NCBI GenBank assembly: GCA_029975055.1 | Contig: JARKPU010000013.1 | Span: 434,001-498,000, forward strand | DNA length: 64,000 nt | Reading direction: 5' to 3' | Source: Anaerolinea sp. | Lineage (GTDB): Bacteria > Chloroflexota > Anaerolineae > Anaerolineales > Anaerolineaceae | Shown here: positions 29,401 to 33,899 of the stretch, in pieces | Layout of the letters: the number at the start of each line of letters is the position of its first letter | Numbering within the stretch: position 1 is the first letter of the stretch | Notes under the pieces: generated by a model | The model's database searches: none | What the model was told of the DNA's origin: nothing | The model's input: only the letters and a program-made list of their open reading frames with translations | Position numbers and translations under genes: made by a program

Positions 29401-30651
29401 TCAAGACCTGCGGATGGTGGTTGTGGCATGCGGCAAGATGGCGGCGGTGAGCGGGCGCTCTGCCTGTTCGATCAGGCGGGCGACCACATCTTCGACCCGT
29501 GAAATGGGCTGCATCAAGAGGCGGCTGACCAGGCCGGGTTGGAGTTCAGACAACAAGTAGATCGGATGCTCCGAGAGCAACCGCGCGACCTGAAAGGCTT
29601 TATGAGGCCCCACGCGAAACTCCATTGAAGAGAACTTCTCCATCACTTCACTTGGGGTCTGCAAACCTGTCATGAAGTCTTCATATGCGCGGCTGCCTGT
29701 GCCTTCCGGGCATGAGGCCACGAGAACGAGGGCACCGCCCGGTTTGCAGAACATCGAGGCGTGCGTCAATGCTTTTTGGGCCTGGTAGAAGTTGATATCT
29801 TTCGGATGGCCGCCTGCGGAAGCGATCACCAGGTCGAATTGGCGTTCACAATGGGTTCCGCAGACGGATTTCGAGACCGGGATGCCCGCCCTGGAGACGA
29901 GCCCCGGGCGGCCAAAGAATGCCGCGACAATTGCCTTATCCTGGTTGAGAATTGCGTTGAGGGCAAGGTCAATGTTCATCAGCGCCCCAATTTCCTCGAT
30001 ATCCTGGCGCAAGGGGTTTTCCTCGAAGATGCCGATCCAGGAATTGGGGCGGATGAGCAGCGCGTGGTTGTGGTTGATCGTCTTGCGGCCGGCCAGCCCG
30101 ATAGCTGCAGATTTATACCCCCCGGAAAACCCGGCGAAGTGGTGCGGTTCGATATCGCCGACGACAATCCGCAGGTCGGCGGCATGGAAGCGCCTGTTTA
30201 CCCAGACAGGGCTTCCCGCAGAGGTTTGACCGAGGTATTCCAGATTCTCTGCGTCATCGGCGTTGTGCGCAGCAATTCGGTATCGAGCAATGATTTCGGG
30301 GGGTAAGATGGCGATGAACTCTTCCGGCTGCATTGGGATATGGGTTCCGGATGCGATCCAGATGTGGATTTGCTCGTCGGGGATGCCGAAAGAAGCCAGT
30401 TTCGCCAGCAGCGGGGTAAGGAGCAGATGGTTGGGCACCGGCCGCGTCTTGTCGTTCACAGCGACGGCCACGGTGGCCGTGGGGCCGATGTTCCAGTTGA
30501 ATCCGAGCGGGTGGTCGATCGCCTCACGGACGACAACCAATGGTTCGGGGGCAGCAGCGGTGTAAGCCGGCAGGATAAGCTGCTGGTCAACCGAATCCGG
30601 CAGGGTAACAGTAATTTTTGAACGGCCGTACGGGAGGGAGTATTCGGTCAT
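29401..30651 (-). CDS. larA: LarA family nickel-pincer racemase/epimerase
   Basis: The 416-residue protein matches lactate racemase LarA. The residues that bind the nickel-pincer nucleotide in the Lactobacillus enzyme (H108, H174, K184, H200) have equivalents at H104 (SGTHIP), H170 (EPHHFAGFSGGYK), K180 and H196 (INHNHALL), all shifted by exactly four. It interconverts D- and L-2-hydroxy acids; family members act on substrates beyond lactate. The cofactor genes larB, larC and larE are not nearby. GGAG lies 10 nt before the ATG. The leader is about 200 nt and carries a duplicated promoter-like segment. Confidence 0.88.
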   Translation of the reverse strand: MTEYSLPYGRSKITVTLPDSVDQQLILPAYTAAAPEPLVVVREAIDHPLGFNWNIGPTATVAVAVNDKTRPVPNHLLLTPLLAKLASFGIPDEQIHIWIASGTHIPMQPEEFIAILPPEIIARYRIAAHNADDAENLEYLGQTSAGSPVWVNRRFHAADLRIVVGDIEPHHFAGFSGGYKSAAIGLAGRKTINHNHALLIRPNSWIGIFEENPLRQDIEEIGALMNIDLALNAILNQDKAIVAAFFGRPGLVSRAGIPVSKSVCGTHCERQFDLVIASAGGHPKDINFYQAQKALTHASMFCKPGGALVLVASCPEGTGSRAYEDFMTGLQTPSEVMEKFSSMEFRVGPHKAFQVARLLSEHPIYLLSELQPGLVSRLLMQPISRVEDVVARLIEQAERPLTAAILPHATTTIRRS

Positions 30652-30885: not shown

Positions 30886-31932
30886 CTATCCCAAAGTAAC
30901 CAAACACACATTCACCAACGCCTTCGCCTCATCGGCGCGCAAGGCAATGCAGTTGACGCCCTGTACAACGCCCTCGGTGGGCGGTACCTCATCCGCTTTG
31001 AAGCGAATGATCTTCCCAAGGCGCGAAATGATGAACAGGTCATCATTCAAGTCCGTTGTGCATGCGCCGACCACACTGCTGCTCTTGAGCACCAATTTAC
31101 CACTGCCACCGGGAGATTTGTTTGCAGCAAAGCCGCTCATTTGCCTGAGCGTGCCTTTCCCATCGGCGGAGAGCACAAACACACTGCTACTGTCATCCAC
31201 TGATGCAATACTCACCACTGAGTCGTTCTCTGCCACCCTCAACCCGAGGCCACCCTGTGGGGGAATGGCCTTTTCAGGAAAGCGAATTCCCGTTCCGGCC
31301 CGGGTGACCAGAAGAAGGTCTGCGCTGCCCGGAGTCCAGCAAGCTGCTGCCAACGGACCAAATTCCAGCAGGTTGTAAAGCTGTGTTCCCTGCCGCATAT
31401 GCTCACCAAACAGGTGGTGACGTAAACAACGCACTTTGCCGAGCTCGCTGGCCAGGGCAACATACCCACGAGCCTGCTCTGGCAATATCGCGACCACTCT
31501 TTCACCGGCTTCCAACCCGAAACGCTCCAACACATTGATGCCCTTCGAGCGCACGGGGAGTGAATCCAGGCTGCCAACAGATAGGCGAAACACACGTGCA
31601 TTGCTTGTGAACACCAGGGCGGTTTGCTTCTCGTCCACCGAGGCCAGCAAGGATGGGTGATCGGGCGGCACGGTATCCAGGTCAAAGATCCCCATCCCAC
31701 CGCGATGCTGCCTGGGGTAGAGGTGGCGGTATGTTCGCTTGATCCATCCCGACGCACTCACCGTCAAAATGCAGCTGGTGGTTTCTGGCTCGGTATACAC
31801 CACTTCTTGCAGTGCTTCCGATAGAGGGGTAAGAGCATCTGCCCTGGAAGCACCCAGGCCCAATTTCCGTTCTAAGAATTCGATATATCGGATCACATCC
31901 GGGGGGGTATTGCTGAGGTCAGGTCGCTGCAT
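30886..31932 (-). CDS. Stand-alone DNA gyrase A C-terminal (beta-pinwheel) domain protein
   Basis: The 348-residue protein starts with a short helical part (residues 10-45) and then consists of six repeated units such as LTVSASGWIKRTY, LVFTSNARVFRLSV, LASELGKVRCLRHH, LVTRAGTGIRF, VLSADGKGTLRQM and IISRLGKIIRFKADEVP. These are blades of the DNA-wrapping propeller of gyrase A. QHRGGMG (75-81) is close to the GyrA box QRRGGKG. The catalytic breakage-reunion domain with its Tyr is absent. ATG 31932 was chosen because TACAAT at 31966-31971 predicts transcription starting inside the longer frame. It may wrap DNA or modulate gyrase. Confidence 0.82.
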   Translation of the reverse strand: MQRPDLSNTPPDVIRYIEFLERKLGLGASRADALTPLSEALQEVVYTEPETTSCILTVSASGWIKRTYRHLYPRQHRGGMGIFDLDTVPPDHPSLLASVDEKQTALVFTSNARVFRLSVGSLDSLPVRSKGINVLERFGLEAGERVVAILPEQARGYVALASELGKVRCLRHHLFGEHMRQGTQLYNLLEFGPLAAACWTPGSADLLLVTRAGTGIRFPEKAIPPQGGLGLRVAENDSVVSIASVDDSSSVFVLSADGKGTLRQMSGFAANKSPGGSGKLVLKSSSVVGACTTDLNDDLFIISRLGKIIRFKADEVPPTEGVVQGVNCIALRADEAKALVNVCLVTLG

Positions 31933-31971: not shown

Positions 31972-32005
31972 CCCTATCTGCAGTATCTCAAAGGGCAATT
32001 GGAAT

Positions 32006-32885: not shown

Positions 32886-33899
32886 TCATTTTCCTTCGAT
32901 GGCCTGCCGGTAGCCCTTATCCAGTTCATCATCGCTCAGGTGAGCATAGCGCTGGGTGACGGCGATGTTGCGGTGGCGCGCCAATTCCTGCGCAAGTTTC
33001 AGGTTGCCGGATGTGCGCAGCACTTTGGTGACAAAATAATGCCGGAAGGAATGCGGGGTGATCGCGCCGACCATGTAGTCGCCAAGCAAGGTGCGGACGC
33101 GCTCAGCGACGATATTGCGGCCTGTGGTGGTGGTCATTGGGCGGATTTTCTTCCCCGCGCCGGGATCATGCCGGGCAAATAATGGCAGGCGGGTGAGGGG
33201 CACGCCGCTGGCGCCGTCGAGGACGGCCCGGGCTTTGAGGTAGTCTTTGATGGCTTCGATCGAACGCTCCGAGAAACGGATGACGGCCTCTCGGTTGCCT
33301 TTTCCGATTACGATGGCCTTGAGCTCATTCCAATCGATATCACCGCGTTTTAGATTACACGCTTCATGCACCCGCAGGCCGGTATCGGCAAGGGTATAGA
33401 AAAACGCCCGGTCACGCAGGTTGCGGAGGCGTTCGGCGGCATCCTCAACCGAGGCTCCGGCGAGTAAATCGATCTTGGTAAGCAGTTCATCGATAGCGCT
33501 GCCAGGGAACTGTGGAAGACGCTGCCCCGGCCGCCGCGCGCGCTGCCGGATGAGCAGCCGAATACGCGGAAGGTTCACCTTTATCAGGTCTTCGGCTGCC
33601 AGAAAATCGTAAAAGCCAGCAGCAGCCGTCAGGTAAAGCGACTCGGTTGCTGGGCTTTTCTCTTTGAGCGCCTCCGCGAACCAGGCAATCGCTTCTTCGG
33701 GCAGATCACCAATCGAGAATTTATCGGGTTGCAGCTGGTGCGCATTGAGCACGGATGAAAAAGCATTGAGCGCGTTCCGGTAGGTCTGCGCAGTGCGCGG
33801 GCTGCGCGCCTGGCGAACCGTCTGAAGATAGCGTTCGATCGCCCAGGAGATCGTCCCTGCCTGGAATTCCTCATTCACATCCAGGTGGCTAGGACTCAC
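32886..33899 (-). CDS. Tyrosine recombinase (XerC/XerD-like integrase)
   Basis: The 337-residue protein has an N-terminal SAM-like core-binding domain (about 12-105) and a catalytic domain with all active residues: R176 (DTGLRVHEA), K200 (GKGNRE), H283 and R286 (HSFRHYF), H309 (ARHRN) and Tyr318 (TQRYAHL). It should cut and join DNA at a specific site. It overlaps yjjX by 4 nt and sits in housekeeping genes with no attachment-site repeats, so it is more likely a chromosomal Xer-type enzyme than a phage integrase. It is slightly longer than XerC/D because of a loop near 225-260. Confidence 0.87.
   Translation of the reverse strand: MSPSHLDVNEEFQAGTISWAIERYLQTVRQARSPRTAQTYRNALNAFSSVLNAHQLQPDKFSIGDLPEEAIAWFAEALKEKSPATESLYLTAAAGFYDFLAAEDLIKVNLPRIRLLIRQRARRPGQRLPQFPGSAIDELLTKIDLLAGASVEDAAERLRNLRDRAFFYTLADTGLRVHEACNLKRGDIDWNELKAIVIGKGNREAVIRFSERSIEAIKDYLKARAVLDGASGVPLTRLPLFARHDPGAGKKIRPMTTTTGRNIVAERVRTLLGDYMVGAITPHSFRHYFVTKVLRTSGNLKLAQELARHRNIAVTQRYAHLSDDELDKGYRQAIEGK

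Follow-up and report, generated by a model that had tools for sequence, protein, structure and literature searches.

The window analysed here, a stretch of 64,000 nucleotides from the draft genome of an Anaerolinea species (4.59 Mb in 81 contigs), carries on its minus strand a gene for a protein of 348 residues that resembles the C-terminal domain (CTD) of the gyrase subunit GyrA and that we call the wheel protein (Table 1). In the mechanical list of open reading frames the frame 30886-31932 runs on to a TTG at 31998, and the starts of the relatives fall near the ATG at 31932. An earlier note on this DNA, which had read the gene as an orphan propeller without a catalytic domain, was right: DNA_gyraseA_C was the only Pfam domain found on the protein (E 7e-21, in three stretches; PF03989 score 73.8 bits, against a gathering cut-off of 27), and the scan gave no match to the DNA_topoisoIV catalytic domain PF00521. 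With the NCBIfam models the protein scored higher for GyrA than for ParC, and a search of solved structures returned mainly GyrA CTDs, the best alignments beginning at about residue 53-54.

Table 1. Features of the wheel gene and two nearby genes, in window coordinates.
Feature	Position	Strand	Remarks
Stand-alone GyrA C-terminal beta-pinwheel protein	30886..31932	minus	348 aa; ATG 31932; stop TAG 30886-30888
N-terminal motif [EQ]RPDLxxVxPxVxAYIExLExxL	31861..31932	minus	residues 1-24; helix 11-29 in model
GyrA-box equivalent, blade 1, QHRGGMG	31690..31710	minus	residues 75-81; family mostly QRR[GSA]GMG
Blade-5 loop NKSPGGSGK	31096..31122	minus	residues 271-279; place of gyrase blade-5 box (R766 loop)
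Blade-6 loop DEVPPTEGVVQGVN	30952..30993	minus	residues 314-327; box motif lost
Downstream gene, LarAH5-type	29401-30651		
XerC-like tyrosine recombinase	32886-33899		

The AlphaFold2 model (68 sequences, the window protein first) reached a pLDDT of 92.9 and a pTM of 0.85 and comprises a helix at residues 11-29, a low-confidence stretch at residues 32-42 and a wheel after that. Its top match in VIA-align was the Borrelia GyrA CTD 1suu (Z 35.8, rmsd 2.1 Å over 280 residues), followed by E. coli gyrase (Z 33.4). By E-value, Foldseek put E. coli gyrase at the top and 1suu in eighth place, and among the listed rows 1suu had the lowest rmsd (2.5 Å) and the highest target-normalised TM-score (0.86). 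The six-blade propeller of the earlier note is borne out by this superposition on six-bladed GyrA CTDs, and the window protein is thereby predicted to adopt the six-bladed pinwheel fold of the PF03989 domain.

Relatives of the protein were collected in several samples. A scan of the species-genome collection, which relied on two peptide patterns, confirmed 105 loci, and the 80 best of these were examined. The titles of these best 80 of 105 all carry names of Chloroflexota groups except for L118 ('bacterium'), and 79 of the 80 listed loci encode a full-length protein of 338-372 aa (median 347 aa), the exception being L127, where a contig end cuts the gene. These listed relatives are 40-55% identical to the window protein, and all family counts out of 80 refer to the window protein plus 79 relatives, with L127 left out everywhere. 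In set A3, comprising 68 sequences including the window protein after removal of L116 (which contains X) and of sequences more than 85% identical, DNA_gyraseA_C was the sole Pfam match in 68/68 members at E 0.001 or better, and PF00521 matched none of the 68. Among 61 genomes searched, 11 carry a window-type protein (own genome included), and the proteins of the ten other carriers are 41-54% identical to that of the window. The class sample contained matches at E 1e-50 in 43 of 247 genomes, one match apiece and with a longest frame of at most 443 aa; exceptions were G244, with one in-frame TAA, and G294, which begins at a contig end, and five divergent rows scored just 286-308 bits. In a phylum-wide sample of 350 (make-up known for 22 rows), just two matches reached E 1e-50: that of the own genome and a long-frame GyrA. 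The members found so far belong to the Chloroflexota, chiefly to the class Anaerolineae. Within the taxonomic family of the window the gene is patchy, occurring in 5 of 37 genomes and in none of the four congeners, two of which are 99% complete, and the stand-alone wheel protein is therefore dispensable. The family is under purifying selection, with NG86 dN/dS values of 0.06-0.28 in 29 of the 30 pairs more than 72% identical (the remaining pair being saturated). Given this conservation, the separate gene family, and with it the window-type protein, probably has a job of its own. As a separate observation on the class genomes, an HU-type match (E 1e-10) was found in just 43 of 247.

A search of the own genome for a full-length gyrA, as the earlier note had suggested, revealed two full-length PF00521 (GyrA/ParC) proteins, at C45:29756 and C4:826343, both away from the window ORF. 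The C45 protein is a GyrA whose CTD has six PF03989 repeats; the window gene lies on C4 of this draft genome and gyrA on C45, hence on different contigs. The other is a second GyrA/ParC-type protein (L010, G000:C4:826343-827683 and its C-terminal side) with a long Ala/Lys/Pro-rich tail after the CTD; its RRGGKG stretch comes towards the end of the CTD instead of in the first blade. This divergent paralogue was left out of the GyrA comparison set (n = 20). The same note had named a decayed gyrA or parC as the finding that would point elsewhere, and none was detected: PF00521 had no match in the own genome outside the two full-length genes, and the catalytic part of the own GyrA, used as a query, matched nothing in the window or the 80 related loci (best 80 of 105), in a search whose control recovered the own gyrA locus. 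The window protein is 27-28% identical to the GyrA of its own genome and of three congeners. The family profile gave members at least 428 bits and the 20 GyrA CTDs at most 156 bits, a gap somewhat flattered because members score themselves. In a tree of 43 rows, made up of 27 of the 80 family sequences (every third) and 16 of the 21 fetched GyrA/ParC loci (five were left out, own GyrA among them; the alignments cover all 21), the family lies on one side of a branch with 100/100 support and approximately 3.1 changes per column. Because the sampled members fall on one side of this branch, a recent split of the own gyrA was rejected, and the family of separate wheel genes is consistent with one origin. 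We regard it as near certain that the window gene is an intact member of a separate-gene family encoding the GyrA CTD only.

A helix before the propeller is conserved across the family, a feature absent from the earlier note. Most relatives carry the N-terminal motif RPDL...YIExLE (best 80 of 105 loci), with Y16, L20 and E21 in 80/80 sequences and P4 in 79/79 of those with a residue there. Positions 13, 17, 20 and 24 are hydrophobic in 96-100% of the family sequences, and such a 4-3-4 spacing is typical of short coiled coils. Helix 11-29 was predicted both in the whole model and when the segment was folded alone; the first ten residues scored about equally in the two (87 for the segment alone against 90 for the whole model), so that the models speak neither for nor against docking of the helix on its own propeller. 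When a profile of the motif was run over the own genome, the next best match had just E 2.3. One of the 11 rows of set A2, L020, is without the motif, with unread bases in the DNA there, and some divergent class-sample members match the family profile only from position 10-14 or 43 onward, so that the motif may not be universal.

The DNA-contacting rim was compared with that of GyrA blade by blade. The GyrA-box consensus Q(R/K)RGG(R/K)G (PMC3510516) characterises gyrases and not the domain as such, and the window protein departs from it with QHRGGMG, the motif that the earlier note had placed at the GyrA-box position and that indeed lies there. The box of the own GyrA (QNRGGRG) likewise departs from the consensus, at the second position. 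In the blade-1 box Q75, R77 and G81 are present in 80/80 family sequences and M80 in 78/80, and the sixth box position is basic in 0/80; to judge from the alignment, M at this position, where the gyrase consensus has K/R, is a family signature, which the earlier note had not included. The blade-5 loop is also well conserved (N271 in 78/80, K272 in 79/80 and K279 in 80/80). The box motif (R/K)xxG or (R/K)xxxG is found in all six blades of 20/20 GyrA; in the family the same (R/K)xx(x)G motif occurs in blades 1-6 in 80, 69, 11, 35, 77 and 0 of 80 sequences, respectively, that of blade 2 being kept with a shifted register (69/80). The blade-6 loop has a mean charge of -1.54 in the family versus +3.00 in GyrA. 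Judged by these motifs, the putative DNA rim is remodelled: blades 1, 2 and 5 retain the box motif, blades 3 and 4 have mostly lost it and blade 6 lacks it.

The arginines that wrap DNA in Salmonella gyrase (R612, R667, R716, R766 and R817, with numbers taken from PMC7210945 and a fitted offset) gave a similar comparison: in their five columns all 20 of the 20 Chloroflexota GyrA have R, and a basic residue occurs in 0/80 family sequences. A basic residue does lie at most two positions from these columns in 69, 56, 41, 79 and 69 of 80 sequences, respectively, so alignment shifts may explain part of the arginine loss. Taking the lost arginines as proof against DNA binding was rejected, as basic residues are often one or two positions off. 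Changing R667 or R716 in Salmonella is reported to stop DNA binding (PMC7210945). For E. coli, PMC7038939 states that with R766A the isolated CTD wraps very little, that the GyrA mutants still bind DNA and that R612A and R817A had no observable effect on supercoiling; R612 and R817 are two of the positions lost in the family. Basic residues are present in 79 or 80 of 80 sequences at K65, R66, R77, R113, R217, R263, K272, K279, K307 and R310, and R69, R263, K279, K307 and R332 are fixed in 80/80 at positions that in GyrA seldom or never hold a basic residue. The mean net charge in the family is -2.2 for the whole protein and +3.4 for the wheel part. Only some of the gyrase-type motifs for DNA contact survive, so gyrase-like wrapping is not to be assumed. 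We read these residues as a DNA surface that was kept but re-routed, though they could also reflect a new protein partner.

The surroundings of the gene differ from lineage to lineage. The largest clusters of neighbouring genes cover at most 12 of 81 loci (30 of the 80 listed loci, the best 80 of 105, being shorter than 12 kb), and since no neighbour is common to more than 12/81 loci, the wheel gene seems to act alone. A conserved operon partner was rejected, as none is universal and neighbours vary between lineages; for the lineage-specific clusters, a reading of 13 of 24 cluster representatives suggested a carboxylase operon together with proteins of the CYTH-like and M20-type amidohydrolase kinds, and Pfam gave LarA, Asp23 and NusB. 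The downstream gene scores 514.8 bits with the NCBIfam model LarAH5 for nickel-dependent malate racemase (cut-off 462 bits). The tyrosine recombinase of the window is divergent and stays well under the XerC, XerD and XerA equivalog cut-offs; in five listed Levilinea/Longilinea loci (L051-L055) it has relatives close to the wheel gene that face the other way. Computed in 2-kb steps, GC skew stays positive to approximately 34 kb and is mostly negative beyond, and the change at window position ~34000 may mark a local switch of strand or a landmark of replication. The congener G004 keeps the order LarA - X - NBR1-type Ig protein - ECF genes, where slot X (L146 10091-10762) encodes a LON substrate-binding-domain protein, and no trace of the wheel gene was detected there (best tblastn E 0.13, profile E 2.1). 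In the congener G002 the flanking genes are split over two contigs, with the break at the spot of the wheel gene. These two loci indicate that the gene was lost or gained cleanly. Phage or plasmid cargo was rejected, as 56 IMG/VR stretches matched a pattern and 0 of them encode a relative; PHROGs gave a marginal topoisomerase match only (E 0.0096), and the wheel protein had no plasmid match at E 1e-20. A defence system was likewise set aside, PADLOC giving no match for the wheel gene and the next two genes upstream, and the promoter/terminator and Rfam scans returned nothing useful.

A precedent for a free GyrA-type CTD is Gac of Borrelia. According to PMC10127594 it is made from a promoter inside gyrA, consists of the CTD alone and wraps DNA; it also acts as the repressor of a promoter, and in E. 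coli it makes up for HU in some features. By analogy, DNA binding or bending, or regulation of gyrase, by a free propeller is plausible, as the earlier note had proposed. Our preferred explanation, which we believe and doubt in about equal measure, is that the wheel protein may be a Gac-like accessory protein that bends DNA or regulates, is encoded by a gene of its own and has an N-terminal helix that would serve self-association or docking. A short DNA segment would be held on the disc's rim and bent by the basic loops in blades 1, 2 and 5; with most contacts gone from blades 3, 4 and 6, there would be no full gyrase-type wrap. The helix, with its hydrophobic residues in 4-3-4 spacing, would pair two wheels or dock the wheel on a partner, and the protein would be a small DNA-bending factor, architectural or regulatory in its role, and not a component of a topoisomerase. 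The fold match to the Borrelia CTD, the purifying selection, the conserved basic residues and the Gac precedent speak for this explanation; the wrapping arginines lost from their columns, the negative net charge of the whole protein, the patchy occurrence and an N-terminal motif that may not be universal speak against it. The more specific picture of an Anaerolineae DNA-bending dimer, in which the helix pairs two wheels and the DNA path differs from that of gyrase, free of a cutter or ATPase, as a new type of bacterial nucleoid or regulatory factor, is tentative and on balance doubtful.

Among the alternatives, of which a protein-only scaffold and gyrase modulation are the chief ones, it is rather unlikely that DNA binding is gone and that the pinwheel is reused as a protein-interaction scaffold, an adaptor like the ParC CTD for MukB. 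The box motifs mostly or wholly lost from blades 3, 4 and 6, the blade-6 loop that is acidic on average, the conserved non-basic residues C328 (80/80) and C198 (74/80) and the presence of the ParC CTD-MukB structure 4mn4 among the fold matches would all suit such a role, but several basic positions are invariant and the fixed family-specific ones would be odd in a domain freed from DNA. Modulation of gyrase or topoisomerase IV, whereby the wheel would compete with or cap the GyrA CTD on DNA or dock on the core via its helix, is unlikely. It would fit the homology to the GyrA CTD, the two full-length GyrA/ParC genes in the own genome and the retention of the box motif in blades 1 and 5, which are the two where mutation reportedly disrupts gyrase (PMC7038939). 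However, the empty search with the own GyrA catalytic part means that no gyrA lies close to the wheel gene in the window and the 80 loci, and many relatives without the wheel protein still have long-frame GyrA-type matches. Replacement of the histone-like protein HU in HU-less Chloroflexota is highly unlikely, even though the wheel and HU (PF00216, E 1e-10, apparently in the same 247-genome sample as the wheel search) each occur in 43/247 genomes and together in 0, against an expected overlap of 7.5 (P 1e-4 if genomes are independent), and in the own genome nothing matched HU at E 1e-10. Both genes follow taxonomy, which weakens the per-genome exclusion: by taxonomic family the counts are 11 against 10 and not significant (P 0.08-0.13, with assumed totals of 55-64 families), and 161 of the 247 genomes have neither gene, as is the case for the congener G002. 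A decayed remnant of a gyrA or parC gene is vanishingly improbable, since nothing beyond the missing catalytic domain speaks for it, and dozens of genomes have intact relatives on one branch under purifying selection, with their own conserved N-terminus and no catalytic remnant, the one counter-case on intactness being G244, 1/43 class-sample members.

The mostly open-access literature that we searched held no stand-alone, separate-gene GyrA CTD family. The wheel family is a natural experiment, with the DNA-wrapping domain evolving apart from the enzyme that supercoils, and it could separate the residues for DNA bending as such from those serving gyrase. With HU/IHF the wheel protein would share the proposed job, DNA bending, only. 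With the CTD of the topoisomerase IV subunit ParC it shares the pinwheel, albeit with Z scores below those of most GyrA CTDs (about 16 for E. coli 1zvt and 4mn4, 23.9 for the topoisomerase IV CTD 1wp5), and the sequence scores favour GyrA. GyrA of gyrase has the same pinwheel fold and a GyrA-box in blade 1, which the wheel protein mirrors with a box-like loop; unlike GyrA, the wheel protein has no breakage-reunion domain, M instead of K/R as the sixth box residue, and box motifs mostly or wholly lost from blades 3, 4 and 6. The closest parallel is B. burgdorferi Gac, also a free GyrA-type pinwheel encoded beside a full-length GyrA (here known from genes), and by Z the model matches the Borrelia GyrA CTD structure 1suu best. 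The Gac authors write (PMC10127594) that it is not known if separate GyrA CTD production is unique to Borrelia; their question concerns a product of gyrA itself, and the family described here shows that, in another phylum, a free CTD of the GyrA type has a gene to itself. In contrast to Gac, the wheel is far diverged, and its own gene encodes a predicted N-terminal helix and an apparently remodelled DNA rim.
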